DNA of 40,979 bases, from IMG/VR virus record IMGVR_UViG_3300031918_000064, positions 1 through 40,979 of that record; one strand, 5' to 3'. How positions within the stretch are numbered: the stretch's first letter is position 1; each line of letters starts with the position of its first letter. The notes under the pieces were generated by a model, which was given only the letters and a program-made list of their open reading frames with translations, made no database searches and had not been told where the DNA came from. The position numbers and the translations under genes were made by a program. Of this stretch, positions 4,981 through 40,979 are shown in pieces. The stretch comes from a virus.

Positions 4981-5253
4981 ATGGATGACCGACAGACCGG
5001 AAAGACCACCCGCCAAATGGAAAACCTGCCTCAACTGGCGGTCTACGTCTGGTGCAACTCGATCCTGGGCTATCCCAAAGACCTCGCCAAGAAGATCGGG
5101 CGCACGGACCTGGAGATCGTCGGCCCCCACTGGCTCACCGACCAGCGATGGCGCGGGCGGTCCCTCACCGGGCTGGAACTCGACCACGCTTGCCGCCTCG
5201 ACTCCAGGCAGTACGAAGCCTTTGAATCGGCACTCACCTGCATCAGCCGTTGA
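4981..5253 (+). CDS. 90-aa protein with a degenerate P-loop-like start
   Basis: The product begins 'MDDRQTGKTTRQMENLPQLA', followed by 'VYVWCNS', like the first strand-loop-helix of a P-loop NTPase. The leading Gly of a normal Walker A motif is missing, and 90 residues are too few for a full NTPase. I recall similar short phage proteins with 'TGKTT' near the N-terminus that remain uncharacterised. I used the ATG at 4981, where AAGGAA precedes it by about 8 bases. Upstream in-frame starts at 4888 and 4948 lack a good ribosome binding site. It probably binds a nucleotide or phosphate, but this is weakly supported. Confidence 0.65.
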   Translation: MDDRQTGKTTRQMENLPQLAVYVWCNSILGYPKDLAKKIGRTDLEIVGPHWLTDQRWRGRSLTGLELDHACRLDSRQYEAFESALTCISR

Positions 5254-7600: not shown

Positions 7601-10108
7601 ATGGCTCGCAAGAAAAAAGTTGCTGAGGATGAGGCTGCGTCTGGACCAGTGGAGAGCGTGGATATTCCCTTCCAATGGGTCACGGTCAAGTCGGCCTTCG
7701 ACAAGAAGCCCGTTGCCTGCAAAGGCTTGTTCTCCGAGTTCGCCGAATGGCTGCTGGAAGGCAAGCATGAGCTGGCCAAGGGCAAAGAGAAGCCCAAGCT
7801 GCGCACCCCAGCTTTCTCACCCTGCACCCTGTTGCCCGGGGAAACGGAACTGGTCACGGCTGCCATCCTACAATGCACCGCCCTGGCCATCGACTTCGAT
7901 GCCACGGAAGCCCAGGCCGTTTGCAAGGGCACCCTGGGAGAGGCCAAGGTTCAGGTGGACCGGGCCCAGGTCAAGATCGATCTGCCGGCCCTGGTCAACG
8001 CGGTCACCTCATCCAACTACAGCGCGATCTTATACGAAACCGCGTCCAGCACGCCTGAGTTCCCCCGGGTGCGACTGGTGGTCCCCTTCGCCCTTCCGAT
8101 CGCTGCTGAGCTGCTGCCGAACGCCCTGGCCAGCTTCCTGGAGACCTTGGGCTTTTCCCAGTGGGTGGATATCCCCACCTCCACCCGGATCGCCGGCATC
8201 CACTTCGTGCCCATGGCCGAGCCCGGGACGATCTTCTACCTGTTCCAGCCCGGCATCCCCTTCCAGCCGCACTTGGACTGCGCTCCCTTGGACGTGCCGG
8301 CCCCGACCGGGCTGGACGAGGCCAGACACAAGATGCACGAAGAGTGGGACAAGGCCGGGGTCCAGGTCTTCGACTTCAAGGACCTGCAATCGGATGGCTG
8401 GATGCGCAGGTTCCCCATCGACTGGAAGGCCCTGGACATCGAGAAGCTTTTCCGGGAAGGCCTGGGTGTGGAAGTGGAGAAGCGCAGCCGGGTGCATAAG
8501 CGCACCGGCAAGAAGTGGCGCTGCCAGTGCCCGCTCTACCATGAGCATTCGAAGATCAACACCGCCCTGGATGCGGTGATCTTCACGGAGGAAGACGGAT
8601 ATCCTGGGTTCCATTGCCCACACCAGCACCTCATCTCCCTGCGGCATCTGGTGCTCGGCACCGAAGACGGATCACCGGCCGTGATCGACGAAGACATGCT
8701 CATGCAGTATGCAGAGAAGTGGGTCTCGCCCATGGCCAAGGAAGCCAAGGCCCGCAAGGTTGCCACGCCCGAAGTCTGGTATTACCGTCACGCTTCGGCC
8801 CCGGGCCAGCGCATGGCCAATGTGCAGCTCCTCTCCGGCAGGATCCTGAAATGGGCGGTGAAGCTGGACCGCAAAGGCAACGTCAAGGAACGCAAGCTGA
8901 TCAAGGATCAATACAATGTCGATAAGATTTTCCAGCACGATGATGTGTTCACTGATCTCCAATACGATCTGCTGAAGCAGGCTCCTGTATGGCGCGGCTA
9001 CAGCATCCCCGCCACATCCCTGGAAACGGTCATGAGTGATCTACGCTCCTATATCGTGGAGAATTACAATGGCATTTGCATCAATAACCTCTCCCTGCTG
9101 GAAGCTTTTCTGGCTGAGGCGAACCGCCGTCCATTCCACCCGGTCTTTGATTACCTATCCGGGCTTGCTTGGGATGGGATTTCCCGGATTGCAATGGTGC
9201 CTCAAAAGGTGCATGCCGTGCCTAACCCGCTGGTGCCGGAATATTTCCGGTGCTTCTTTGTCGGGTGTGTGGCTCGGGCGCTGCACAATCCAGGTCCCAA
9301 TAGTCAGAACGGAGCCAAGTTCGACACCGCCCTCATTCTGCAATCCGATCATCAAGGAACCAAAAAGACCACTTTCTTTCAAACGCTTGTCCCGCAGGAA
9401 GACTGGTTCGGCTCGGAAGCAGTAGGCGACCTGGAGCGGGATGCTCTTCTGATTGTTCACCGGCACTGGATCCATGAAATGGGTGAAATCGATGCCCTGC
9501 ATCGCAAGCACGAAGCCGAGAAGCTCAAGAACTTCATGAGCCAGACCCAGGACACGTTCCGCTTGCCCTATGGCCGCGCCACCGGCACCTTCCCGCGTCG
9601 GTTCGCCCTGGGCGGTTCCACCAATCGCACGGAGTTCCTGGAAGATGACACCGGGGCCCGGCGCTGGCACATCGTGATGATGGAAGATACCGAGATCGAT
9701 GTTGACTGGATCGAGGAGAACCGCGATCAGATCTGGGCTGAGGCCGTGGCCCTCTACCACCAGGGCGTTACCTGGTATCTGGATCGGACCATGTCCAGGA
9801 TCCATGAAGAGAATTCGGCCCTGCACATGAACGTGGATGCCGGCTTGGTGAGCGCCATTTCCAAATACTTCGCGTCCATGGATGACAATGCCCAGAAATT
9901 TTTCATGATGGAGGACATCTCGGCTTTTCTGAGGGATGAAATCCGGGAAGAGTTCGGCCGTTCATCCCAGGTGAAAGTAGGCATGGCCATCCAGAAAGTA
10001 AATGCCATGCGTCACGTTCAAGGTCTGTCGGGCTTTACCAAGAGCCGAAATAAGTTGGGGTGGTATTACCATCTTGACACGGTAGGGCAATCACCTAGTA
10101 TTGCTTAG
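7601..10108 (+). CDS. Primase-helicase, VapE-type ATPase with N-terminal primase-like domain
   Basis: The 835-aa protein begins after an AGGAG site. Residues about 90-215 resemble an archaeo-eukaryotic primase/polymerase fold: 'LAIDFD' (98-100, the DxD-like metal motif) and 'ILYETASSTPEFPRVRLVVP', where the usual His is replaced. Residues 308-343 hold Cys/His groups ('CQCPLYHEH', 'CPHQH') like a zinc ribbon. Residues about 510-720 are a Virulence-associated E-type helicase ('FDYLSGLAWDGISRI', 'WIHEMGEIDAL', 'PRRFALGGSTN', 'DDTGARRWHIV'). The Walker A at about 582-592 reads 'SDHQGTKKTT', with Asp and Lys in place of the two usual glycines. It probably primes and unwinds DNA at the phage origin and works with the polymerase encoded downstream. 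Confidence 0.85.
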   Translation: MARKKKVAEDEAASGPVESVDIPFQWVTVKSAFDKKPVACKGLFSEFAEWLLEGKHELAKGKEKPKLRTPAFSPCTLLPGETELVTAAILQCTALAIDFDATEAQAVCKGTLGEAKVQVDRAQVKIDLPALVNAVTSSNYSAILYETASSTPEFPRVRLVVPFALPIAAELLPNALASFLETLGFSQWVDIPTSTRIAGIHFVPMAEPGTIFYLFQPGIPFQPHLDCAPLDVPAPTGLDEARHKMHEEWDKAGVQVFDFKDLQSDGWMRRFPIDWKALDIEKLFREGLGVEVEKRSRVHKRTGKKWRCQCPLYHEHSKINTALDAVIFTEEDGYPGFHCPHQHLISLRHLVLGTEDGSPAVIDEDMLMQYAEKWVSPMAKEAKARKVATPEVWYYRHASAPGQRMANVQLLSGRILKWAVKLDRKGNVKERKLIKDQYNVDKIFQHDDVFTDLQYDLLKQAPVWRGYSIPATSLETVMSDLRSYIVENYNGICINNLSLLEAFLAEANRRPFHPVFDYLSGLAWDGISRIAMVPQKVHAVPNPLVPEYFRCFFVGCVARALHNPGPNSQNGAKFDTALILQSDHQGTKKTTFFQTLVPQEDWFGSEAVGDLERDALLIVHRHWIHEMGEIDALHRKHEAEKLKNFMSQTQDTFRLPYGRATGTFPRRFALGGSTNRTEFLEDDTGARRWHIVMMEDTEIDVDWIEENRDQIWAEAVALYHQGVTWYLDRTMSRIHEENSALHMNVDAGLVSAISKYFASMDDNAQKFFMMEDISAFLRDEIREEFGRSSQVKVGMAIQKVNAMRHVQGLSGFTKSRNKLGWYYHLDTVGQSPSIA

Positions 10109-11580: not shown

Positions 11581-12105
11581 ATGTATATCGCAATTGATTT
11601 CGAAACCACTGGGCTGCTTGCCCCTACTGCCGCACCGCTTGACGTTCAACCACACATCGTCCAGATCGCATTTCTTCTGCTGGATCCAGACTTTGCCGAG
11701 GTTACTTCATTCAATGAGCTAGTGCGCCCGCCCATTCACATTCCAGCCGAGGTCTCCCGTATCCATGGGATCACCGACGATCAGGTGAAGGACCGTAAGA
11801 CCTTTGCCGTGTTCGCCAAAGAGCTGCGCTCCCTTTCGAACGAAGCCACCTGGATTGGCCAGAACGTGCCATTCGACCAGGGTTGCCTCTATCATGAGCT
11901 GCGCCGGCTAGGGACCGACTGGAAGCCCACACCATCGCTCGATCTCATGGACTTCATCCGGGCCAAGTGGGGCAAGCGCAGGAAGCTGGGCGATGTCTAC
12001 CTGGACCTGTTCGGAGAGCGCTTTGCCGGGGCCCACGATGCCCTGGCCGATATCCGTGCGACCGTCAAATGCCTCGCGGCACTCAGAAAGGAATTCAATG
12101 TCTGA
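11581..12105 (+). CDS. DnaQ-like DEDDh 3'-5' exonuclease
   Basis: The 174-aa protein has all five residues of a DEDDh exonuclease: D6 and E8 in 'IAIDFETTG', D99 in 'WIGQNVPFDQG', and H152 with D157 in 'AHDALADI'. It should remove 3' terminal nucleotides. The next-but-one gene is a C-family polymerase, which in bacteria uses a separate DnaQ subunit, so this is probably the phage proofreading subunit. A GAGGGACTA site precedes the ATG. It overlaps the next frame by 8 bases. A stand-alone nuclease role is also possible. Confidence 0.9.
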   Translation: MYIAIDFETTGLLAPTAAPLDVQPHIVQIAFLLLDPDFAEVTSFNELVRPPIHIPAEVSRIHGITDDQVKDRKTFAVFAKELRSLSNEATWIGQNVPFDQGCLYHELRRLGTDWKPTPSLDLMDFIRAKWGKRRKLGDVYLDLFGERFAGAHDALADIRATVKCLAALRKEFNV

Positions 12106-12370
12106 CCCCAAGCTCTCTCCCTTCCCCGTGCGTTCCTTCATGCAGACCGTGCGCTCTACCTCCCAGCTGCACGGGGATGCTGGCGTGGTCCAGCTCCTCT
12201 CTGAGAACCTGCCCATGGTGCTGGGTATCCTTTCCGTCGCCAGTGAGATGGAGCTGACCCCGGAGTGGCAGGCAACACGCATGCGCATGCTGTCGAGCGT
12301 GAAGTTTGAACAGAAGATCATGGCCAAGAATCTGGCTAACGAAACCGCTTCCCGCTACGAGGCCGACTAA
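12098..12370 (+). CDS. 90-aa protein between exonuclease and polymerase
   Basis: The ATG overlaps the exonuclease end by 8 bases, and its stop overlaps the polymerase ATG by one base (TAATG). This tight packing suggests coupled synthesis and a common function. The product is helical ('FMQTVRSTSQLHGDAGVVQL', then 'EWQATRMRMLSSVKFEQKIM'). I recognise no family. A small linker subunit comparable in position to a theta-like factor is conceivable, but there is no sequence evidence for it. Confidence 0.65.
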   Translation: MSDPKLSPFPVRSFMQTVRSTSQLHGDAGVVQLLSENLPMVLGILSVASEMELTPEWQATRMRMLSSVKFEQKIMAKNLANETASRYEAD

Positions 12371-15015
12371 TGCTGCTCCCGCTGCGAACACGCACTGAAT
12401 TCTCCTGCAAGCAGGGGCTTGCCACGGTCAAGGATCTGGTGGCCCTGGCCGTGGCCGAAGGTAATACCCATCTCGCCATCACCGACTTCAATTGCTTTGG
12501 GCACGTGGCTTTTGAGAAGGAATGCAAGGCCGCTGGCATCGTGCCGATCTTTGGCCTGGAGACCAGGGATGAAGCAGACAGGCCCCTGATCCTTCTGGCC
12601 AAAAACGCCCAGGGCTTGGGCCAGATTTATGAGGCGGCTGGCCTGGAAAGGGTTCGCCATCCCATGACTGCCTTTGATGTTACCGTTCTCCATCACCCAC
12701 TTTGTGAATTCCAGGATGGCTTTTGCATGGTCGGACCAGGCTTCGTGGGGTCCAATGTCTCTGGGCATCCTGAAGTCGCCGTATCGGATCCGCTCTATCT
12801 CAAGCCTGGAGACCGGGCTCTGTTCGAGGTGCATAATTCCCGTGAGCCATTCTGCTTTGGGCACGAATGTCTAAAAGCAGATAAGTTTAAAATGGCTCAC
12901 CTTAATGCTCTCGACGTGGCCAGTTACTTCAAACCGTTCGATATCCCACGGGCCCAAGCCGTCGAAGTGCATGGCCTCTTCGATCTGCGCCAGGACTGCC
13001 TTGACGGGGCCGAATGTCTGGGACTGAAGATGGACGAAGTCTATACCCAACGGCTCAATCGTGAGCTTGGAGTGATCCATGACAAAGGCTTTGAAGGCTA
13101 CTTCCAGATGGTCAGTTCACTTACCGGATGGGCGAAGGAACAGAATATTTTCCTTGGCCCCGGTCGAGGATCGGCTGGCGGTTCGCTTGTTGCGTATCTG
13201 CTCGGCATTACGGAGGTCGATCCAATCCGTTTCGGCCTTCTCTTCGAGCGGTTCCTTGACCCTACCCGCTCCGACTTTCCGGATATCGATCTTGACTTTC
13301 CCGATGATCGGCGGGACGAGGCCTTTACCTATCTTGCCGAAACTTATGGTAAGGATCGCGTATCCAGGCTTGGCACTATCCTACGATATGGAGGTAAAAG
13401 CGCTCTCAAGGAAGGTGCCAAAGCTCTGCGCATCGAAGACGAGTCTCTGGAGCCGGTTGGGGAAACCATTTACACGCCTCTGGCCGGGGAAGTGAAAGAG
13501 GATTGCCTTCAGGATGTCTTCAATAGCGAAGCTGGCCAAGAGCTTCTGGCCCGTCATCCTGAGCTGGCCATCTGCGCCAAGCTGGAAGGCCGGGCCAAGG
13601 CATCCGGGAAACATGCGGCTGGCGTGGCCGTCTGTCCCTCCTCCAACGTGATGACCGACTTCGCCGCCGTAGTGGATGGCGTGGCTCAGATTGACATGCA
13701 TGACGCCGAAGCCCTGGGCATCGTGAAACTGGATTGTCTGGGCCTCCGAACCATGGCTATCCTGGAGCGGGCCTGTTCGCTGCTGGGGTGGAGCTATCAG
13801 CGCCTACTCGATGTGCCTCTGGACGACCAGGACACCCTCCAGGAATTTCTACAGCAGAACTACGCTGGAATCTTCCAGTGGGAAGGGGATACACTCCGTG
13901 GGCTCACTAGCCAAACGCCGCCCGAAAGCTTTGAGGATTTGGTTCTACTCACATCCATCGCTCGCCCCGGGCCCCTGCAAGCTGGGATGGGACGTGACTT
14001 TCAGCGGGTGCAGAAAGGCACTTACCTGGGAGCCGGTCCTATCTGGGGCTCCATTCTGGGGAATTCAAGGGGCATATTGGCTTATCAGGAACATGTTATG
14101 TCCTTGCTATATTCTTTGGACTTCAAGGATCGAGAGGTGGGCATCCTGCGCAAGGCCATGTCGAAGTCCAAGATTGATGTGCTGGCAGAGTATGAAGCCG
14201 AATTCATGCAGCGTGGTTTATCTAAGGGGTTCAATGCTGCACAGGTTTCGAAATGCTGGAACCAGATCAAGGGCGTAGGCGCCTACCTCTTCAACCGCAG
14301 CCACGCCGTCGCCTACACCATGGTCTCGTTCTGGTGCGCCTACCTGAAGCACCACCATCCGATGGAATTCTACTGCGCCGCCATGGACCGCGCGCCCACG
14401 CCCGAAGCCGGAGCGGAGATGCTGCGCGAAATGACCCGGCTCAAGATCCCCTTCACGGTCATCGACTCCGAACGGAGTATGGACGTGTGGACGATCCAGG
14501 ATGGCCGGATCATCGGGGCCCTGACCGCCATGCCCGGCTGGGGTGAGGCCAAGGCGAAGAACATCATCAAGCGGCGCAAGGAAGGGAACCTGACCGAGCT
14601 TCAGATCAGGCAGATGAATGCCGGCATCACGATCTACACCGCTTGCTTCCAGGATCCTGCCGTGCTGGCCAAGGTGCGTTCCATGCCGTCCGTTCCCCTG
14701 TGCTCGGTCGAAGAGTGCAAGGCGCATGGTGGCTGGGTCCTGGGGTTCATTGAAAGCCGCTTCGTGATCGACTACTCCTCGCCGAAGATGGTCCAGAAGT
14801 ATGGGGCCTGCAAGCCTGGGCGTGAGAAGTCCGTGGCCCTGACCATCGTGGACGAACAGGATTCGATCAAGGCCACGCTCACCGGGCGCAGCTACGCCGC
14901 CATTGGCGAGCGCATCGAGGCAGTGCCGGATAAGGTCTGGGGGCTCTTCAACCTCAGCCGGTGGGAGCAAAATGGGAAGCTCTACCTCAATGACTTCAGG
15001 GGGATCGAATGCTGA
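12370..15015 (+). CDS. dnaE-like: C-family DNA polymerase (DNA polymerase III alpha-like)
   Basis: The 881-aa protein replicates the phage genome by adding nucleotides to a primer. It has the C-family palm: 'GPGRGSAGGSLVAYLLGI' (263-280), 'FPDIDLDFPDD' with catalytic D305 and D307, 'KHAAGVAV', and 'KLDCLGLRTM' carrying the third Asp (D455). The fingers and HhH-like parts follow ('FNRSHAVAYTMVSFWCAYLK', 'MPGWGEAKAKNI'). The N-terminal PHP domain is degenerate: the usual HxH reads RTR ('LRTRTEFS'), so it is not expected to have nuclease activity. At 881 aa it is shorter than the approximately 1160-aa bacterial subunit and lacks an obvious full C-terminal tail region. An OB-like end may remain. 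Proofreading is presumably supplied by the upstream DnaQ-like protein. Confidence 0.93.
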   Translation: MLLPLRTRTEFSCKQGLATVKDLVALAVAEGNTHLAITDFNCFGHVAFEKECKAAGIVPIFGLETRDEADRPLILLAKNAQGLGQIYEAAGLERVRHPMTAFDVTVLHHPLCEFQDGFCMVGPGFVGSNVSGHPEVAVSDPLYLKPGDRALFEVHNSREPFCFGHECLKADKFKMAHLNALDVASYFKPFDIPRAQAVEVHGLFDLRQDCLDGAECLGLKMDEVYTQRLNRELGVIHDKGFEGYFQMVSSLTGWAKEQNIFLGPGRGSAGGSLVAYLLGITEVDPIRFGLLFERFLDPTRSDFPDIDLDFPDDRRDEAFTYLAETYGKDRVSRLGTILRYGGKSALKEGAKALRIEDESLEPVGETIYTPLAGEVKEDCLQDVFNSEAGQELLARHPELAICAKLEGRAKASGKHAAGVAVCPSSNVMTDFAAVVDGVAQIDMHDAEALGIVKLDCLGLRTMAILERACSLLGWSYQRLLDVPLDDQDTLQEFLQQNYAGIFQWEGDTLRGLTSQTPPESFEDLVLLTSIARPGPLQAGMGRDFQRVQKGTYLGAGPIWGSILGNSRGILAYQEHVMSLLYSLDFKDREVGILRKAMSKSKIDVLAEYEAEFMQRGLSKGFNAAQVSKCWNQIKGVGAYLFNRSHAVAYTMVSFWCAYLKHHHPMEFYCAAMDRAPTPEAGAEMLREMTRLKIPFTVIDSERSMDVWTIQDGRIIGALTAMPGWGEAKAKNIIKRRKEGNLTELQIRQMNAGITIYTACFQDPAVLAKVRSMPSVPLCSVEECKAHGGWVLGFIESRFVIDYSSPKMVQKYGACKPGREKSVALTIVDEQDSIKATLTGRSYAAIGERIEAVPDKVWGLFNLSRWEQNGKLYLNDFRGIEC

Positions 15016-16607
15016 ACGCACACATCGAAGGCAAGCTGATCATCCTCACCGGGGATCTCCGGGCTGACTACGATCAATACGCCGATCTCCCATTTGATTA
15101 CGATGGGCGCACCCGGATCCTGCTGCCCAACTCCCAGCCCCACCGAGAGCGCTTCGGCTTGGCTGAGGCGAAGCTGGCCCCGGTGGCTGCCCCGGCTCCC
15201 GTCACGGTGGACGACTACACCTTCGCCACGAACCCCCGGCCCTATCAGCTAGAGACCTGGCAGAAGTCGAAGAGCATGCCGGCCTACGCCTACCTCTTTG
15301 AACAGGGCACTGGCAAGACCAAGGTCACGATCGACAAGGCCGCCTATCTCTTCCAGGATGACAAGATCGATGCCCTGGTCGTCATCGCCCCGAACAATGT
15401 CCATGCGAACTGGATCAAGGAAGAGCTGCCGAAGCACGTCCCATGCCCCTGGGCCGGCATGATCTATTACGCCGATGGCATCGAGAACTTCGGAGATATG
15501 AATGCGCCTGGGCTCAAGGTCTTCTGCTTCAATGTGGAAGGTTTTGTCTCAGACAAGGCCAAGGAACTGATCCGGGCCACGCTCAAGAAATACCGGTGCC
15601 TGCTGGCAGTGGACGAGTCCAGCCGGATCAAGAACCACTCGGCCATGCGCACCAAGTTCGTGCTCTCCCTCCAGGCGGCCTACCGGTGCATCCTCTCCGG
15701 AACGCCCGTCACGCAGGGCATGGAAGACCTCTATACCCAATTCCAGTTCCTGGACCCGAAGATCCTGGCGTGTCGGACCTTCTACACTTTCCGGGCCCGC
15801 TACTGTCGGATGGGTGGGTTCAAGGGCAAACAGATCGTCGGCTACTTCAACATCGAAGAGCTTCAAGCGCGGATCGCTCCCTATTCGACCCGGGTCCTGA
15901 AGGCCGATGTCCTGAAGGATCTTCCGCCCAAGGTCTATCAGACGCTTCCCTTCAAGCTCACCGTGGAACAGCGCCGGCTCTACGATGCCCTGAAGCGGGA
16001 GAGCCTGGATGAATTGGAAGACATGCTTGGATCCGGCAAGACCATGCAGGTCGTCTCCGAGCTGGCCATGACGCGCATCCTGCGTCTCCAGCAAATCACT
16101 TCGGGGTTGATGCCTGAGACGGATGGCCTCCCGATCCCTGGGGCCAATGCTCGCATGGATGCCCTGCTGTCTAGGCTTGATGATCTCCAGGGCAAGGCTA
16201 TCATCTATGCAAGGTTCCGTGCTGACATCGAGAACATCGTCCGCAATCTCCCTAAAGATTCCTTTGTTACCCTGCATGGAGGCACGAAACAGAATGAGCG
16301 GATGGATGCTGTTCAATCATTCCAGAACGACCCTACAATTCGATATTTTGTTGGCAACCCTGCTGCCGCTGGCATTGGTATCACCCTTACTGCTGCTGAG
16401 GCTGTGCTGTATTACAGCCAGGATTTTAACCTTGAATATCGTCTCCAGTCTGAAGACCGTCCGCACCGCATTGGCCAAACGAAAAGCGTCCTGATCATTG
16501 ATCTCATTGCTGAGAAGACCGTGGATGAGAAGATCGTGAAAGCACTGCGGAGTAAGCATTCACTAGCCAAGCTGATCCTCAAGGATCCGGCTTCCTTCAT
16601 CGCGTGA
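15009..16607 (+). CDS. SNF2-type superfamily 2 helicase/translocase
   Basis: The 532-aa product carries helicase motifs in order: 'RPYQLETWQ' (Q-like), Walker A 'QGTGKT' (99-104), 'VIAPNNVHANWIKEEL' (Ia), 'VDESSRIKN' (DExx box, 201-209), 'LSGTPVTQG' (III), 'AIIYARF' (IV) and 'SEDRPHRIGQ' (VI). The last motif is a hallmark of SNF2-like enzymes. It hydrolyses ATP to move along double-stranded DNA. Short phage versions occur next to polymerase genes and probably act in replication or recombination. The first 70 residues are an unassigned beta-rich extension. It overlaps the polymerase end by 7 bases. Confidence 0.93.
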   Translation: MLNAHIEGKLIILTGDLRADYDQYADLPFDYDGRTRILLPNSQPHRERFGLAEAKLAPVAAPAPVTVDDYTFATNPRPYQLETWQKSKSMPAYAYLFEQGTGKTKVTIDKAAYLFQDDKIDALVVIAPNNVHANWIKEELPKHVPCPWAGMIYYADGIENFGDMNAPGLKVFCFNVEGFVSDKAKELIRATLKKYRCLLAVDESSRIKNHSAMRTKFVLSLQAAYRCILSGTPVTQGMEDLYTQFQFLDPKILACRTFYTFRARYCRMGGFKGKQIVGYFNIEELQARIAPYSTRVLKADVLKDLPPKVYQTLPFKLTVEQRRLYDALKRESLDELEDMLGSGKTMQVVSELAMTRILRLQQITSGLMPETDGLPIPGANARMDALLSRLDDLQGKAIIYARFRADIENIVRNLPKDSFVTLHGGTKQNERMDAVQSFQNDPTIRYFVGNPAAAGIGITLTAAEAVLYYSQDFNLEYRLQSEDRPHRIGQTKSVLIIDLIAEKTVDEKIVKALRSKHSLAKLILKDPASFIA

Positions 16608-20045: not shown

Positions 20046-20828
20046 TCAGGAGGAAATGAGAGCGCTGGGATTGAAGCCACCCTTGTGGGAAAGCTCCAGA
20101 TAGACCCCGTAGATATCCACGATATTGGGCTGGGAAGCAGTCCCGTTTAGGTTCCTTGGGCAGATGAAAAGAGACCCACAAAGGGCATTCAAAAGCGCTA
20201 GAGATTTACCCGTGACATCGATTCGATACTCTTCAACAGTATTGATAGTTGAAACAAAATGACCATCAATCATATGTGACCAATAAGGATACGATCTTGA
20301 AGACAACAAAGGATCAAATACATAAGCACTAGCCCCAGGTCCAAAACTTTTGCCGTGGCTAGAATCACGAATGGCCCATGGCCCTGGGCTATAAGTTCCG
20401 CTTGTCGATGGAAAAATCTGGTGCTGGTCTCCATGCCATTCAAGATCGTCGCTATTATTGAGGAGCCTGACAGCAATGAAGTCATCCATCATCCACTGTT
20501 TAAAACGATATTTAAATACAATTTCGGCCTTGATGACATCGCTTGGGACATCCCCAGCGGCCAGCCCAAGGTTTGAGAATTCACTGAATCGAGCCATGCT
20601 CGCATCGCCAACTCCCCATACAAAAGAATGCTGGGTGGTCCGGCCAAACGTATCGGGATCGGCACTCTGGATGTTCGCTTGATCCGTTGATGTGTCACCA
20701 CACACATTGATCCGCTCATAACTGCCATCATCGGCAGCTTTGAGAAAGTATTCTGCCAGATAGAACCCCCCGGCAGGGTGTCTTGCCCACGTCTTGAAGG
20801 GAAACCGGGTGCGCTTGAAATCGCTCAT
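20046..20828 (-). CDS. 260-aa beta-rich virion protein, candidate receptor-binding or tail protein
   Basis: The start overlaps the upstream stop (ATGA). The product is rich in aromatic residues and beta strands ('YRIDVTGKSLALLNALCGSL', then 'FICPRNLNG'), like a small beta-sandwich. The DNA in the middle of the gene is visibly more AT-rich than its neighbours, which is common for exchangeable host-recognition genes. I find no catalytic motif and no named family. It lies just after the structural genes, so it is probably a late virion component. Confidence 0.65.
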   Translation of the reverse strand: MSDFKRTRFPFKTWARHPAGGFYLAEYFLKAADDGSYERINVCGDTSTDQANIQSADPDTFGRTTQHSFVWGVGDASMARFSEFSNLGLAAGDVPSDVIKAEIVFKYRFKQWMMDDFIAVRLLNNSDDLEWHGDQHQIFPSTSGTYSPGPWAIRDSSHGKSFGPGASAYVFDPLLSSRSYPYWSHMIDGHFVSTINTVEEYRIDVTGKSLALLNALCGSLFICPRNLNGTASQPNIVDIYGVYLELSHKGGFNPSALISS

Positions 20829-33400: not shown

Positions 33401-34456
33401 TTACGCGGTCACCCCGTGCTCGACCCGCTTCATCCAGGCATCGTTGAGGATGCCGGAGCCGCAGGTGGCCTTCCAGCCCAGGGTCGTATACTGGCCCAGG
33501 GGATCGGCCTTGTCGCGCTGGCTGGCCGGGATGTAGATGGTCTCACCGCTGTTCGGGCCCAGCTTGACCACGGCGTAGGCTTCCTTCCCGACGACCAGCA
33601 GCGCATTCACGCTGGTAGCGCTACCAGAGGTCAGGAGGCCGGTCGCCGGGCTGGTGCTACCCACACCACCGAACTGCTTGCACTGGGTCGTGCTGACGAA
33701 GCGGATGGCCCGGAACGAGCCGACTTCACCAGGCAAAAGGTCATCGACGTGACCATAGCGCTCGACCGGGGTGTAGCCCTTGGCGGAACCGATGATGGTC
33801 TCCAGGTCGAACCGGCCATAGGCATTGGTGATGCCGATGTAGGCCGGGCGAACGGCGTTGGACCCGATGTCCGTGGATCCCTTGATCATGCCCTTGAAGA
33901 CCACGGCGTTGGCGTTCTCCAGGTCCCGGATAACCTTGCCCAGGGCCACATCGTTCAGGCGGCCGTTGACGAGGTTGCGGGAGGCGACCAGTGCACCCAC
34001 ATCGTCGCCGAGGCGAGCGAAGTTGGTGCCGGCAATGATGCCTTCGCGGTAGTAGGCATCCATGGTCTGGGCCATGTTCTCCGAGTTGCGCTTCATGAGG
34101 TTTTCGTCCACGTCCACTTCGTTGATCCATTCGGCGAGGTCCGAATACTGGAAATACTGGCCGAGCTGGACGGTGACGACCGAAACATCGGTGACGGTAG
34201 GCGCAGTGTTGTCAGGGACGACGCCTTCGACCAGGACACGAGAAGGTGTGGTGCCGGCCGGAGTATCCGCACCATCAAGCGGTGCGATGCGCTCATAGCG
34301 CCGAAACTTGATGGTCTTGGAGTTCTTGGCCGGAATGGTGAAGGGCTCACCGTAATTGGCGTGGACGCACAGGGGCTGCGCGACCGAAAGGCCCTTCCGA
34401 TTCACGTAGACCGTGATCGGAGCGACAGAACTAGTGGTAGTGGTAGCACGTGCCAT
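33401..34456 (-). CDS. Major capsid protein, N4-gp56 family
   Basis: The 351-aa protein has family features: an N-terminal arm ('ITVYVNRKGLSVAQPLC'), 'TIKFRRYERIAPL', 'LGQYFQYSDLAEWINEVDVD', 'RFVSTTQCKQFGGVG', and an end 'QYTTLGWKATCGSGILNDAW'. These belong to the HK97-fold capsid family named after N4 gp56. It builds the icosahedral shell. It follows the scaffold-like gene and is followed by a strong hairpin terminator, which fits a highly expressed product. AAAGGAA lies upstream of the ATG. Confidence 0.93.
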   Translation of the reverse strand: MARATTTTSSVAPITVYVNRKGLSVAQPLCVHANYGEPFTIPAKNSKTIKFRRYERIAPLDGADTPAGTTPSRVLVEGVVPDNTAPTVTDVSVVTVQLGQYFQYSDLAEWINEVDVDENLMKRNSENMAQTMDAYYREGIIAGTNFARLGDDVGALVASRNLVNGRLNDVALGKVIRDLENANAVVFKGMIKGSTDIGSNAVRPAYIGITNAYGRFDLETIIGSAKGYTPVERYGHVDDLLPGEVGSFRAIRFVSTTQCKQFGGVGSTSPATGLLTSGSATSVNALLVVGKEAYAVVKLGPNSGETIYIPASQRDKADPLGQYTTLGWKATCGSGILNDAWMKRVEHGVTA

Positions 34457-35225: not shown

Positions 35226-35519
35226 TTAATCCTGATTGCCTTTGTCCGCACTCTTTTGTTTCCGCTCGTCAAGGATAAGCCTGGTCTCCATGGCCCGAAC
35301 GAATTCATCAAGAGCCCATTGGCCGCCGTCCTGGAAGGCTCTCCGGATTGCCCATCCCTCCACCGCCACCTCCGAGGGAAGGATGGGGCCCCTGAGCTTG
35401 GAGGCTTGGGACTCCAGGAAGGCTTTGCACACCACCCATGCCGGACTGGCCAGAAACTGACTGAGAAGGGCCCTGCCCTCCGGGGTTGCCCACATTTCCG
35501 TTTTGAATCGCTGCTGCAT
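35226..35519 (-). CDS. 97-aa protein overlapping the end of the portal gene
   Basis: A perfect AGGAGGCGATCG site precedes the ATG at 35519. The product looks like a real folded protein: 'KTEMWATPEGRALLSQFLAS', then 'PAWVVCKAFLESQASKLRG', then 'WALDEFVRAMETRLILDERK'. The first 212 bases of the gene (35308-35519) lie inside the portal gene in another frame. The portal there encodes a Gly/Pro/Ser-rich low-complexity tail, so the overlapping frame has probably shaped it. The function is unknown. It may be a head-assembly factor because of its position before the scaffold gene. Confidence 0.72.
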   Translation of the reverse strand: MQQRFKTEMWATPEGRALLSQFLASPAWVVCKAFLESQASKLRGPILPSEVAVEGWAIRRAFQDGGQWALDEFVRAMETRLILDERKQKSADKGNQD

Positions 35520-37266
35520 CGATCGCCTCCTGTCTGACCTGTTCATCCGATTTCCAGAACCTACTTGCCGCATCCTTCAGACCGGCCATCTCAAAAAGTT
35601 CCGACCCATATTTCACCGGGTCAAGCCGCTGCTGGCAAGCCGGAATGGCCAACAGAGACGATGTGATCTGGACCAGCTGGCCAAGCCGCTGGGTATTATT
35701 CATCATCTGGGAAGACCCGATGCAATAGATATCGAATTCCCCGGCAATGGAATCCCGATCAATCCGCTTCGAGGCAGGCCGATCAGTGGGATTGAGCGGA
35801 TGGGTAACCCGCACCCATACCGCTTCTCCAAGCAGCTGCTGGAGAAGACTGATCTCCTGCCGGACCACGGTATTAATGGTCTGTTCCAGCTCTTCCACCA
35901 TGTCCGTGCCCCGGGCATTGCCGTTGCTGGCCACAAGACTGGTCTCCGTGGCCGAACGCTCACCGCCCGTGTTCATATCGGTAATGGAACCGAATGCCTC
36001 ACTCACTTCTGCCTTGAGAAGTGCCACTTCATGGAAGCCATCCATGGCCTTGTCCGGCACCTCGAATGGTTCAGGCTTGGCCGTGGTGTAGGGGAAGAGC
36101 GCCCCCGGGAAGGCCTCGAATTCGTCGGGGTCGAACAAGCCATCCGGGTGATAGAACCACATGGGATTAACAGCCATGGCATGAGCCACGATGCTCTGGT
36201 TGAAGCGCTCCAGGATCGCATCATGCAGCCCCACACACCGCTCGACCAGCCCCGCTCCATACGGTTCACCCGGGCGCGGAAGCAGCTGGTAGAGGCCGCA
36301 GGGCATCATGCCATGTTCGAAGGGCAGGGGCTCCAGGCGCAGCAGCGTCGTGCGATTGGCAATGACTGCCACGTGATTGTAGAGGATCACCGGCTCGGTA
36401 TCGCCCTCGAACGTCACTGGAATATCCCCGTAGCATTCGATCACCTCGACCTTATCCTTGCCCTCGTAGTCGCCAGAGAGGCCCAGGGCGACCTTCTCCT
36501 GCTGCTTCATGGCATCGGAGGCCTCGGCATTGGACGCAGGGGTGATGTTCTCCGTGTTCTCGTAGACCTTGTATCCGGCCTCGTTCTCGTCACCCATGGC
36601 CTTGATATAACTGGGATCGCGGAAGAACCTACGCATACGCAGGCTCCGGTCCGGGTCCTCCGGCCAGGGATCGTGAATGTAGTCGTAGATCGAGGTCACA
36701 AAGAAGTCGGGCCCGGCATAGGTCACCATGGGCTTGGTCGGAATGAGCATGGGAGGCGGCTGAGTGCCAGCGTCCTGTGCAGCGATGATGCGTTGTTCCA
36801 GTTCGCCCAGGGCCTTCTGATCAGGAATGGAGGTCTTGCGCACCGTCCAGTTGACGGACCAGGGCGAGTTCCCGGTGATGATGGCCTGCTTCACCATCTT
36901 GCGCAGCTCGCGCTTGAAGTGGTTCTTCATGTGGGCCCAGCGCAGCAGCGCATTGGCGTCGTCCGCCTGCCCTTGGGAATCGGCATTGCGGGCGAGCACC
37001 GACACGAAACTATCGCTGGGCATCGCTGCTTTAATCAGGAGCGCAGATACCGTATCCACGGCATTCTCGATCACCGGATGGTAATAGCGCTCCATTGATC
37101 CAGTCCCCTGGTTGATCATGGCCCCACCGGGCCAACGGCTATAGGCGCGGAAGAAGCACTCCTGCCATAGCTTTTCCAGGTTGATACGATTCGCCTTCCA
37201 CCGCGTGTGATGATCCACGATGAATTGCACCACCTGATCCTGGGCCACACCTGGAAGGATGCTCAT
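35308..37266 (-). CDS. Portal (head-tail connector) protein
   Basis: The 652-aa protein starts after GGAGGCAGGC. Features of podovirus portals are seen: 'RINLEKLWQECFFRAYSRWP', 'VIENAVDTVSALLIKAAMPS', 'HFKRELRKMVKQAIITGNSP', 'YGDIPVTFEGD', 'LLRLEPLPFEHGMMPCGLYQ', and 'GAGLVERCVGLHDAILERFN'. It forms the ring for DNA entry and exit. The last 75 residues are Gly/Gln/Pro-rich and probably disordered. They overlap the next gene. It overlaps the terminase stop by four bases (ATGA), giving the usual terminase-portal order. Confidence 0.9.
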   Translation of the reverse strand: MSILPGVAQDQVVQFIVDHHTRWKANRINLEKLWQECFFRAYSRWPGGAMINQGTGSMERYYHPVIENAVDTVSALLIKAAMPSDSFVSVLARNADSQGQADDANALLRWAHMKNHFKRELRKMVKQAIITGNSPWSVNWTVRKTSIPDQKALGELEQRIIAAQDAGTQPPPMLIPTKPMVTYAGPDFFVTSIYDYIHDPWPEDPDRSLRMRRFFRDPSYIKAMGDENEAGYKVYENTENITPASNAEASDAMKQQEKVALGLSGDYEGKDKVEVIECYGDIPVTFEGDTEPVILYNHVAVIANRTTLLRLEPLPFEHGMMPCGLYQLLPRPGEPYGAGLVERCVGLHDAILERFNQSIVAHAMAVNPMWFYHPDGLFDPDEFEAFPGALFPYTTAKPEPFEVPDKAMDGFHEVALLKAEVSEAFGSITDMNTGGERSATETSLVASNGNARGTDMVEELEQTINTVVRQEISLLQQLLGEAVWVRVTHPLNPTDRPASKRIDRDSIAGEFDIYCIGSSQMMNNTQRLGQLVQITSSLLAIPACQQRLDPVKYGSELFEMAGLKDAASRFWKSDEQVRQEAIDAAAIQNGNVGNPGGQGPSQSVSGQSGMGGVQSLPGVPSLQAQGPHPSLGGGGGGMGNPESLPGRRPMGS

Positions 37267-38726
37267 GCCTGCCTCCGGCCCATGAATGCACGACGGGCTC
37301 TCTCATTACGATTATGCAGCTTATCCCTCATTTCGGCCAATTGCTTTGTTTCAAGAACGGTCAGGTTGCGGCAGAGCCGATACTTCAAGGCATCCAGCCC
37401 ATGGTCGGAACAGCGCTCGTCCCACACTTCACCATTCTTGGGATCGTGCTGGATGCTCTCGATCTCCTTGATCAGGAAGCGGCAATTGTCATGGATCTTC
37501 AAACGGGTGCGGCCATTCACCACTTTCAAGGCCTCCCGGATGATGAAGGACTTCTTCTCACCCTGCTTCATGGCCTTGGAGAAGGGCAACCCCTTCAGCT
37601 CAAAGATCCCCGCGATCGTGTCATCGTTCCCTTCATTGCTGAAGCAAGCTGAATCCAGATAGCGTTCCTGCACGAATTCCTGAGCCTCCCGCTCGATCCT
37701 CAGGATGCCATCGGCCACGGTCGATGCATTCTCCCCGGTTCCCAGGGTCCAGTCTTCCTCGTCTCTTCCTGTGTATTCGCGGTATACATGCAGCTCCCCG
37801 TTCGGCGCATCTGCCGTCCAGAGGAAGTGGTAGGGCCGATAGGTTCCCCAGTCCCCACCCATGGAGCGGGCCCAGTCGGGCGGGATCGGGAAGTGCTTGA
37901 CCACATGCACCCGGGCATCGAATTCGGTGAAGAACATGCCGTCCATGGAATCCCAGGACCCATAGAGAAGCGCTTTGCGCTCGGCCTCCGGCAGCATCAT
38001 CAGGTTACGCACATAGGCCGTATTCGAAAGGAACTGGTTGTCAGCCACGGTCGAAGGGATGTGCCGGCAGGACAGCACCGCTGTGCGATCCACACCCTTG
38101 TCATCCATGAATTGGACCTGCCTAGGGAATACCCCGCCATTGGGCGCGGGCGTCACGTAGCGCCCCTTGATCCATGCCATGCCGGGGCCCTTGGGATTGC
38201 TGGTATAGGCCTGCTGCAAAGGATAATCCTTGGGCGAACGGATGCGGCTCATGAGCCAATCGAACTGTCTGGCCGTGGGGTGGTGCTGCACTTCATCCCC
38301 GATCACCATGGCCCATGATCGGCCCTGATACTGGAGGTGATCGTCCATGCCCTCCATGTAGCCGATTTCCAGGCTGGACCCGGTGGGCAGGGTGATGCGC
38401 TTCTCTGATTCCTTCCACACCGCGCCGGCTGGAAGGAACATTTCCTTGGCCAGGGCCACGATCTCCCGGGCCTGGGGGAAGGTGCGCCGGATCGCCAGGG
38501 AATCGTAGCCTGGCATCACCGTGCCCCGGGCCGCCCAAGACAGCAGCGCGCCACGGGTCTTCCCCGAACCAGCACCCCCGCCTGAGAATACGATGTCCTC
38601 CATGGCTGAGATTTGCTCGACCTGCTTATCCAGCAGGATCCCACCGCTGTAGATGCGGGCGACCTCCAGCAGAGCCTGGATGCGCTGGGCCTCGGACAGG
38701 GTGGAGAGGCAGCCCCAGTTACTCAT
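37263..38726 (-). CDS. Terminase large subunit
   Basis: The 487-aa motor has an ATPase domain with Walker A 'GGAGSGKT' (50-57) and Walker B 'WAMVIGDEVQH' (D144, E145), with 'TSNPKGPG' as coupling motif III. The nuclease domain has 'MGGDWGTYRPYHFLW', then 'RYLDSACFSNEGND', and 'DHGLDALKYR' carrying the final acidic residue. It packages DNA into the head and cuts concatemers. Length and gene order (small subunit, large subunit, portal) are standard. It overlaps the small subunit by 8 bases. Confidence 0.95.
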   Translation of the reverse strand: MSNWGCLSTLSEAQRIQALLEVARIYSGGILLDKQVEQISAMEDIVFSGGGAGSGKTRGALLSWAARGTVMPGYDSLAIRRTFPQAREIVALAKEMFLPAGAVWKESEKRITLPTGSSLEIGYMEGMDDHLQYQGRSWAMVIGDEVQHHPTARQFDWLMSRIRSPKDYPLQQAYTSNPKGPGMAWIKGRYVTPAPNGGVFPRQVQFMDDKGVDRTAVLSCRHIPSTVADNQFLSNTAYVRNLMMLPEAERKALLYGSWDSMDGMFFTEFDARVHVVKHFPIPPDWARSMGGDWGTYRPYHFLWTADAPNGELHVYREYTGRDEEDWTLGTGENASTVADGILRIEREAQEFVQERYLDSACFSNEGNDDTIAGIFELKGLPFSKAMKQGEKKSFIIREALKVVNGRTRLKIHDNCRFLIKEIESIQHDPKNGEVWDERCSDHGLDALKYRLCRNLTVLETKQLAEMRDKLHNRNERARRAFMGRRQA

Positions 38727-39166: not shown

Positions 39167-39193
39167 AAAAAGAAAACCCCTCCGGAGAGGGGT
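39167..39193 (-). terminator. Terminator after the first minus-strand gene
   Basis: On the minus strand ACCCCTC-TCCG-GAGGGGT is followed by TTTCTTTTT. It lies between the leader gene and the terminase genes. Either expression of the structural operon involves read-through or a further promoter lies between 39103 and 39166. I saw no convincing promoter there. Confidence 0.85.
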
Positions 39194-39214
39194 CTTGGGA
39201 GGATGTGATCTGGA

Positions 39215-39520
39215 TCACAGAGCCGGACAGCCGTCCTCGGATTCCCGGACCAGGGGCCCGGCCTCGGCCGTGGCCAGGGCTCGCTCCGCGGTGTCCTCGA
39301 CTTCGGCGGCCTTCTTCGCCTCAGCAGCCTTGCGCTTGACCGTGGCGTCGGCGACTTCCTTGGAGGTGGCCTTGCGGACATCACGGGAGGGGAAGCTGGC
39401 CTTCTTGCCGACCACGGTGTAGGTGAAGCCACGGCCCTGCACCTTGCAGGTCTTCACGGGGAAGACGCCACGGATGCCGGCAATGACGACGTTGGTTCCA
39501 GGGTTGATCTTGTCAGCCAT
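39215..39520 (-). CDS. 101-aa protein, first gene of the minus arm
   Basis: AGGAGCC precedes the ATG. The N-terminal half is a small beta domain ('NPGTNVVIAGIRGVFPVKTC', then 'KVQGRGFTYTVVGKKASFPS'). The C-terminal half is a charged Ala/Lys/Glu helix ('DATVKRKAAEAKKAAEVEDT'). It is transcribed from a good promoter and bounded by a terminator, so it may be produced separately and in large amounts. It could be a nucleic-acid-binding or capsid-decoration protein. I recognise no family. Confidence 0.72.
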   Translation of the reverse strand: MADKINPGTNVVIAGIRGVFPVKTCKVQGRGFTYTVVGKKASFPSRDVRKATSKEVADATVKRKAAEAKKAAEVEDTAERALATAEAGPLVRESEDGCPAL

Positions 39521-39565
39521 GATTGGCTCCTTTGGGATAGGTGTGAGCAGTAGGGCTCAAGGAGA

Positions 39566-39594
39566 AGGGTAATGCAATGAGGCAGGAGTGTCAA
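39566..39594 (-). promoter_or_regulatory. Sigma-70-like promoter of the minus arm
   Basis: On the minus strand a perfect TTGACA (39589-39594) is followed, after 17 bases, by TACCCT (39566-39571). It lies about 50 bases before the first minus-strand gene and is the most convincing promoter of the late arm. Confidence 0.75.
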
Positions 39595-40242
39595 TGGAAT
39601 AAAGAATTGAGTATTTCGGCGGTATGCGTGTTGGACTTAGGTTTTGATGCGCCAGGGGGCTCCGGACGGCTGGGGCAGAAACACTCCCCGGGTGGGGCTG
39701 GGGGCTGAGACTGAGTCCATCTTGCCGTCTCAACTGGACTCGGTTTATGAATCTGAAAGCTGAAAAGATGAAAGGCAAATAGCATGTGCTGATTCTATTA
39801 GCTTTATTTCTATGAATAGGGTTACATAATGGTCGTTATCAGAAGCTGGAGACCATCTGAGGCCAGCAAACCCGCTCTGTCAATGGATCTAGGGACCGAT
39901 GACTGAATGGAGCATGCCTCATGCTGAGCATTGAGTAGCTTTGGCCATTGGGTTGGATGAGGCCCATACCTGACTCGGCGCACCACCGCTGCATCTCTCC
40001 GATCTTCCATCACCGCCAGTGAGATTGGAATGGGAGCAAACCCGCGCCAGCATTACCGCTTTCCTATCTTTCTTATAATATGATCATATGTATGTATGTA
40101 ATATGGTAATAAATGATATATGAATAGCTCATATATACGCGTACAAAACACGCGTAATGTAGAAAGTGTTAGAAACGCTGTTCGAAGGGAGAGTGGTTCG
40201 GAACGATTCACTGGTGGTGCGGCCATTCCATAGTGTTCTCTC
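39595..40242. other. Divergent control region between the two arms
   Basis: About 650 bases without a credible gene. Near 39709-39744 there are imperfect inverted pieces (ACTGAGTCC with GGACTCGGT, and GAGAC with GTCTC). At 39911-39925 AGCATG-CCT-CATGCT is a perfect small palindrome. From about 40060 to 40160 the DNA becomes very AT-rich with many palindromes. I see no tRNA. Confidence 0.6.
40078..40156. repeat. AT-rich cluster of inverted repeats, candidate replication origin
   Basis: Four elements lie in 79 bases: ATATGATCATAT (40078-40089, perfect palindrome); three TATG units (40087-40098); ATATATGA-ATAGC-TCATATAT (40116-40136, perfect 8-bp arms); and TACGCGT-ACAAAAC-ACGCGTA (40136-40156, perfect 7-bp arms). 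The surrounding genome is GC-rich, so this easily melted stretch stands out. It fits an origin or a multi-site operator between the arms. Confidence 0.6.
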
Positions 40243-40269
40243 TTGCACAGAGCCAGATTGCCGTATAAT
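40243..40269 (+). promoter_or_regulatory. Promoter of the 73-aa putative DNA-binding gene
   Basis: TTGCAC (40243-40248) and a perfect TATAAT (40264-40269) are separated by 15 bases, shorter than ideal. The site lies about 50 bases before the gene. Confidence 0.6.
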
Positions 40270-40274
40270 TCCCT

Positions 40275-40289
40275 TGACCATCACGGTCA
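40275..40289. promoter_or_regulatory. Operator-like inverted repeat at the transcription start
   Basis: TGACC-ATCAC-GGTCA is a perfect inverted repeat 6 bases after TATAAT, covering the expected transcription start. It is a likely binding site for a dimeric repressor, possibly the product of the next gene. Confidence 0.55.
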
Positions 40290-40320
40290 TCTAATCCATC
40301 TCTCCCTTTTTGGAGGCACC

Positions 40321-40542
40321 ATGCCGACCCACTCCGGTTACAACCCACTGCCCCGTCCATGGTCAACCCTGATCAGATTACTCGGAGGCTACGACGTCCT
40401 TCACTATCTCGTAAATGTTAACTATGGGTCATATTACAGATGGGCCCATGGCGGCGGACTGAAAAAAACTAACCGAAAAATTATGAAACAACTCTTCGAG
40501 AAATATAATTTACCAGTCCCCCGAAATGTGATCAAAAGATAA
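40321..40542 (+). CDS. 73-aa putative helix-turn-helix DNA-binding protein
   Basis: TTTTTGGAGG precedes the ATG at 40321. An in-frame extension to 40243 would run through the promoter. The middle of the protein ('LLGGYDVLHYLVNVNYGSYY', then 'RWAHGGGLKKTNRKIMKQLF') fits a short helix-turn-helix with a basic recognition part, like small Cro-type proteins. The C-terminus is basic. The gene is much more AT-rich than other genes here, which suggests recent acquisition or a different selection regime. An operator-like repeat overlaps its promoter, so it may regulate itself and the two arms. The fold assignment is tentative. Confidence 0.62.
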   Translation: MPTHSGYNPLPRPWSTLIRLLGGYDVLHYLVNVNYGSYYRWAHGGGLKKTNRKIMKQLFEKYNLPVPRNVIKR

Positions 40543-40627
40543 TATTATTAATCACCTATCATGATTTCCATCATCATCGTCACCAAGTTTTTGTAAGTCC
40601 TTTAAAGTCTCGAATCCCACGTTTCCC

Positions 40628-40645
40628 GGTAAGAAAGGTAAGAAG
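40628..40645. repeat. Two tandem 9-bp repeats
   Basis: GGTAAGAAA is followed directly by GGTAAGAAG. Two copies are few, but they could be binding sites for a regulator of the downstream operon. Confidence 0.5.
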
Positions 40646-40690
40646 CTCCAAAATATGAGCCTTTCAATCCTCAAATTTCGTGAATCTTTT

Positions 40691-40748
40691 CCTCTAGGAT
40701 TGGCCTATGACTGGCGTAACCTGTAACTAGGCCGCTGGCCTAGAGGAG
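40691..40748 (+). promoter_or_regulatory. Mutually exclusive hairpins around a ribosome binding site
   Basis: CTAGGCC-GCT-GGCCTAG (40727-40743) is a perfect hairpin that leaves AGGAG (40744-40748) largely open. CCTCTAGG (40691-40698) is instead exactly complementary to CCTAGAGG (40739-40746), which includes part of that site. The two structures compete, so the leader could switch translation of the 27-aa gene. Confidence 0.5.
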
Positions 40749-40754
40749 CACACC

Positions 40755-40838
40755 ATGCCATTCACCCTCACTGAAACCTATGAGCGCTGCTGGGACTTCG
40801 CTGGCATCATCTCCGGTTTCGACTACTACGGCGCATAA
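40755..40838 (+). CDS. 27-aa micro-protein, first frame of the left operon
   Basis: AGGAG precedes the ATG by 6 bases, and a TAA ends the frame 11 bases before the next start. The peptide 'MPFTLTETYERCWDFAGIIS' then 'GFDYYGA' is aromatic-rich. It may be a real micro-protein or a leader peptide whose translation influences the hairpins upstream or the genes beyond. It is the first frame of the operon that crosses the window ends. Confidence 0.5.
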   Translation: MPFTLTETYERCWDFAGIISGFDYYGA

Positions 40839-40839
40839 G

Positions 40840-40979
40840 GAGCCACGTCATGACCAATCATACAGCCGGGCCCTGGCACGTTGACCGCACTGGGGATCAT
40901 CCTATCGTTTACGACCGCGATGGCATGGCCAAGGCCGAAGGTCGCAAGTAATTCCGGGGCCGCTCGCAGCGGTCCCCTA
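40840..40979. repeat. Right copy of 140-bp terminal redundancy
   Basis: This is the same as 1-140 apart from A at 40853 in place of G at 14. The difference changes the second codon of the 33-aa gene from GCC to ACC. It is best treated as one locus when counting genes. Confidence 0.95.
40850..40951 (+). CDS. 33-aa phage micro-protein, right-end copy
   Basis: This copy is identical to the frame at 11-112 except Thr at residue 2. AGGAG lies 7-11 bases before the ATG, just after the stop of the 27-aa frame. It shows that the operon runs across the cut: 27 aa, 33 aa, 60 aa, 493 aa, peptidase. On a circular map these two copies are the same gene. Confidence 0.6.
   Translation: MTNHTAGPWHVDRTGDHPIVYDRDGMAKAEGRK

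Follow-up and report, generated by a model that had tools for sequence, protein, structure and literature searches.

We tentatively propose, with a probability of about 0.42, that a cluster of palindromes and inverted repeats at positions 40078 to 40156 is the core of a phage replication origin lying within a divergent control region. The window analyzed, 40,979 bases long, comprises a complete IMG/VR virus record. The sequence features described below, their rarity, the gap that contains them, and the helicase and polymerase genes carried by the phage are all directly observed. The genome's least stable stretch and its highest density of inverted repeats coincide within the only large noncoding gap, which makes an origin at this position plausible. 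The cluster most likely adds one more example to a familiar class of origins or cis-control regions, and these two functions are not mutually exclusive, because origins can double as control regions.

Genome layout and the noncoding gap

The last 140 bases of the record (40840 to 40979) are identical to the first 140 (1 to 140) except for one mismatch at position 14, and joining the ends yields a circle of 40,839 bp, although the record itself is classed as linear. The exact part of this overlap is 126 bases long and begins directly after the mismatch, as fits a graph assembler with a word length of 127 meeting a variant site; we therefore infer that the record ends are arbitrary, an assembly-graph effect. 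Because the ends join into a circle, the cluster is not terminal. Plus-strand genes (early arm) start at the ends and continue to about 18.2 kb, where minus-strand genes take over as far as 39,520 (late arm, which also carries tail genes). The stretch between the arms is the only one longer than 300 bp without a plausible gene. No tRNA was found in the window, and there was no Rfam match. The principal features of this layout are as follows:

39521 to 40320: 800-bp noncoding gap between the late (minus) and early (plus) arms, GC content 48% versus 58%
39215 to 39520, minus strand: first late-arm gene, 101 aa, unknown function
39566 to 39594, minus strand: promoter-like TTGACA-17-TACCCT, upstream of the first late-arm gene
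40243 to 40269, plus strand: promoter-like TTGCAC-15-TATAAT, followed by GGAGG and an ATG at 40321
40321 to 40542, plus strand: first early-arm gene, 73 aa, unknown function
15009 to 16607, plus strand: SNF2-type helicase gene, early arm
33401 to 34456, minus strand: capsid gene, late arm
35308 to 37266, minus strand: portal gene, late arm
37263 to 38726, minus strand: terminase gene, late arm

A sigma70-type matrix scan gave TTGACA-17-TACCCT, a consensus match only, the second best score in the genome; no promoter-like site of the late arm scored better, and it lies about 500 bp to the left of the cluster. TTGCAC-15-TATAAT ranked 33 in the genome. The hexamer TATAAT has only three genomic copies (40074, 40264, and 40504), all on the plus strand and all in this region; the copy at 40074 to 40079 overlaps the first palindrome of the cluster and has a poor −35 element. 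Promoter-like matches within the cluster were weak (ranks 73 to 114 in the same scan). Each arm has its best promoter-like site outside the cluster, which thus does not form the core of a main promoter but sits between the two sites, an arrangement that is plausible for an origin.

Several smaller features were seen around the gap. The 10-mer TCCATTGACA occurs twice on the minus strand (39589 to 39598 and 39878 to 39887), each time resembling a −35 element, and as judged from sequence the two copies suggest two tandem late promoters. Small genes with good ribosome sites (73, 27, 33, and 60 aa; 40321 to 40951 and 161 to 343) follow one another across the arbitrary record ends and probably form the start of the early operon.

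Repeat elements and stability of the cluster

The preliminary description had listed four repeat elements, three of them perfect palindromes or inverted repeats, within 79 AT-rich bases, and all four are present at their positions, coinciding with the least stable DNA of the genome:

40060 to 40138: AT peak and least stable stretch, candidate DNA unwinding element
40078 to 40089: perfect 12-bp palindrome ATATGATCATAT, with abutting half-sites ATATGA/TCATAT, unique in the genome
40087 to 40098, plus strand: three tandem TATG units, TATGTATGTATG
40116 to 40136: perfect inverted repeat ATATATGA-ATAGC-TCATATAT (N5 spacer)
40136 to 40156: perfect inverted repeat TACGCGT-ACAAAAC-ACGCGTA (N7 spacer), abutting the preceding repeat

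The half-site ATATGA/TCATAT is common to the palindrome at 40078 (spacing 0) and the inverted repeat at 40116 (spacing 5). Four of the 12 genomic copies of this hexamer, both strands counted, fall in the cluster, and ATATG is enriched there (p = 0.009); this sharing of one half-site by two AT-rich repeats is likewise plausible for an origin. The inverted repeats at 40116 and 40136 overlap by one base and thus form an abutting double hairpin, which when folded as DNA (40110 to 40160) outscored 200 of 200 shuffles (z = −3.8) and did so again as plus-strand RNA. The repeat centers are 42.5 and 20 bp apart, approximately four and two helical turns, a spacing that carries little weight. Nowhere in the genome is a 10-mer present three times within 400 bp, so iterons are absent by this measure; there is no tandem array at the cluster, and its only repeated 8- to 12-mers are the palindrome arms and the TATG tract. 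DnaA boxes (TTATNCACA, TTWTNCACA, and TTTTCCACA) are absent from both strands of the whole genome.

With an AT content of 78.5%, positions 40060 to 40138 are the AT-richest 79 bp in the window (42% AT overall), and the cluster itself is 72% AT. The least stable 60-, 80-, and 100-bp stretches of the genome all begin at 40059 to 40066 (z about −5.6). Perfect inverted-repeat arms of at least 6 bp cover 41 of the 79 bases of the cluster, the genome maximum, compared with a mean of 3. The preliminary description held that no other place was comparable, and this stands for the combination of features, but not for arm coverage taken singly: the next highest value, 31 arm bases, occurs in a window at 36003, outside the AT-rich stretches. 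When the 800-bp gap was shuffled with dinucleotide composition preserved, neither the arm coverage (0 of 600 shuffles) nor the AT peak (0 of 1,000) was matched. Shuffling only a 96-bp stretch gave p = 0.0025 for arm coverage and 0.03 to 0.05 for the repeat counts. All of these chance tests were chosen after the cluster had been seen. An AT-rich region at 20.2 to 20.5 kb was considered as a rival origin and set aside; it is less extreme and lies inside an open reading frame (20046 to 20828).

Replication genes and comparison with known origins

The early arm encodes the following replication proteins:

7601 to 10108, plus strand: VapE-type helicase, candidate initiator (VapE domain, residues 519 to 739)
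11581 to 12105, plus strand: exonuclease, RNase T/DnaQ-like
12370 to 15015, plus strand: DNA polymerase III alpha-like polymerase

The preliminary description stated that the genome encodes its own primase-helicase and polymerase; the proteins identified are the VapE-type helicase (Pfam PF05272, 1e-61) and the polymerase III alpha-like protein. The only solved relative of the helicase is PDB entry 7pds, described as "similar to D. nodosus vapE" (E = 6e-18), which we take to be a SaPI Rep. This predicted kinship with a VapE-family protein is a further plausible argument for an origin. The N-terminal part of the helicase appears primase-like by eye but had no Pfam match, and structure prediction for the C terminus gave no usable model (pLDDT 47). 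Only 9 bases separate the helicase stop (10108) from the following gene (10118), leaving no origin-like gap there.

SaPI Rep helicases are self-loading initiators that recognize their own origins (PMC7581432), which consist of iterons placed immediately after the rep gene (PMC7581432, PMC6092414); satellite origins have two iteron sets around an AT-rich melting site (PMC6092414). The present locus resembles these SaPI and PICI origins, served by Rep or pri-rep with a VapE- or D5-type helicase, in the presence of a related helicase family, and where they combine an AT-rich melting site between repeats with a self-loading initiator, an AT-rich stretch with repeats is found here too. It differs in having palindromes without iterons and in its position: instead of following rep directly, it precedes the entire early arm, at a distance of about 8 kb from the helicase gene when the map is drawn as a circle.

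Other systems offer partial parallels. The SV40 origin contains an AT tract flanked by early and late units that run in opposite directions. SV40-type replication by the large T antigen helicase uses head-to-head initiator sites and self-loading hexamers (PMC3401641). The likeness of our locus to this type is a layout analogy only. The primary origin of T7-type phages is a short AT-rich stretch near promoters and needs promoters of the phage RNA polymerase. The cluster is likewise a short AT-rich stretch near promoter-like sites, but no match to a phage RNA polymerase was recognized among the proteins scanned. Lytic podoviruses (Saffermanviridae and similar) share the two arms with a noncoding gap between them, as well as a distant portal similarity; unlike the gap described here, their early/late control regions have no comparable AT-rich palindrome cluster. 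No origin of this phage type turned up in literature searches.

On the origin reading, the initiator, most simply the VapE-type helicase of the phage, would bind the head-to-head ATATGA/TCATAT half-sites flanking the AT tract and perhaps also the TACGCGT repeat. The AT tract, predicted to open more readily than any other part of the genome, would then melt, helicase rings would load, and the phage polymerase would copy outward along both arms. We infer every one of these steps, from binding through melting to the start of synthesis. If the cluster is an origin, phages in which a VapE-type helicase is combined with a polymerase III-like enzyme would have a compact, testable start site, and such helicases would not need to rely on iterons beside their own gene. 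That it represents an undescribed kind of lytic-phage origin for such helicases, with paired palindromes around an AT tract, no iterons, and an SV40-like layout in a divergent early/late control region that lies apart from the helicase gene, seems to us unlikely.

GC skew and relatives

An inflection of GC skew at the cluster, proposed in the preliminary description as support for an origin, did not materialize: the cumulative skew is lowest at 20.8 kb and, after detrending, highest at 35.2 kb, with no inflection at 40.1 kb. By the usual convention the skew minimum marks the origin, which here would be 20.8 kb. Measured per coding strand, third-position skew differs little between the arms (−0.097 and −0.082), and thus the skew tracks transcription or the coding strand. 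Because it follows the coding strand, GC skew is uninformative as an origin test here. The alike coding-strand skew of the two arms is compatible with two forks leaving the gap. The earlier suggestion of an origin is upheld in part, by the only large gap, the genome-minimum stability, and the VapE-type helicase, and not by the skew.

Viral contigs were searched for relatives with the terminase, polymerase, portal, and capsid proteins, and genome contigs with the portal and capsid proteins. The best relative, L036, is 19.5 kb long (capsid 78%, portal 66%) and spans the portal to the tail end, a region that excludes the gap. A more distant relative, L033 (terminase 35%, capsid 50%), includes its own region upstream of the terminase; its two noncoding gaps have no such cluster and neither ATATGA nor ACGCGT. 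Nothing comparable was seen in the divergent gaps of Pf-WMP3, A-4L, TR020, and VA-RY-3, which are too distant for absence to count. Polymerase relatives shared 30 to 40% and had no close structural genes. The portal is distantly like those of Saffermanviridae freshwater cyanophages (20 to 24%), and the capsid had no match in Saffermanviridae cyanophages. The phage has a mosaic appearance, combining a VapE helicase, a polymerase III alpha-like protein, and an exonuclease with a distantly Saffermanviridae-like portal and an unlike capsid. Neither the right end, searched as DNA against phages, nor the gap, searched against phages and plasmids, returned anything useful; one match of 65 bases to an Enterococcus phage (E = 0.2) was taken as chance.

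Alternative explanations

Against an origin stand the lack of iterons, the distance from the helicase gene, the skew without inflection at 40.1 kb, and the absence of the cluster from the distant L033 and from phages of similar layout. A control site is nearly as likely as an origin and accounts for the same anatomy, palindromes as operators of the early promoter being an equally simple explanation. Here the palindromes would bind a phage or host regulator of the early promoter, which lies some 90 bp rightward of the cluster, the regulator perhaps governing also the weak promoters within the cluster, and the AT-rich DNA would help promoter opening or bending. Dimeric regulators typically bind paired half-sites, TTGCAC-15-TATAAT has the cluster on its upstream side, and, in a region that holds every genomic TATAAT, the first copy overlaps the first palindrome in the fashion of an operator. 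The palindromes are nevertheless not overlapped by the best promoter-like sites, and the first of them, being single-copy, does not point to a regulon; no gene could be recognized as encoding a regulator, although many genes are unassigned. A control site would mark the early switch in a poorly known podovirus-like group. Either reading concerns a single locus in a single uncultured phage.

We consider it improbable that the gap instead holds the genome ends or the start site of the terminase, as in podoviruses of similar layout. The records of Pf-WMP3 and A-4L share the two-arm layout and begin and finish between the arms, and the gap adjoins the terminase genes; yet the repeated ends of our record lie outside the cluster and look like the assembly effect described above, and a palindromic AT-rich cluster is not a defining feature of such sites. 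Similarly doubtful is an absence of function, in which chance inverted repeats would have arisen in an AT-rich noncoding stretch under little constraint. Palindromes form easily in AT-rich sequence, the 96-bp shuffles reach the observed repeat counts in 3 to 5% of cases, and the test was chosen post hoc. Arm coverage unmatched in shuffles of the whole gap, AT richness that is not spread through the gap, and a double hairpin that exceeded every shuffle all argue against this explanation.

GTAC avoidance and other observations

The tetramer GTAC is nearly eliminated from the window (2 sites, at 5211 and 40141, versus 69 expected). L036 has 1 site versus 26 expected, and the lack is weaker in more distant relatives; judged by these counts, the loss common to the window and L036 points to shared restriction pressure. 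Among nontemperate phages, loss of restriction sites is an established means of countering restriction (PMC6286503). The site at 40141 lies within the TACGCGT inverted repeat (40136 to 40156), and the chance that a given 79 bp holds one of the two sites is about 0.4%. With this one site as the basis, GTAC may have been kept at 40141 through a need for its repeat.

Where the first late-arm gene ends, TGTGATCTGGATCACA (39204 to 39219) has the look of a CRP-type palindrome; it lies beside a terminator-like hairpin (39176 to 39193) that follows this gene.
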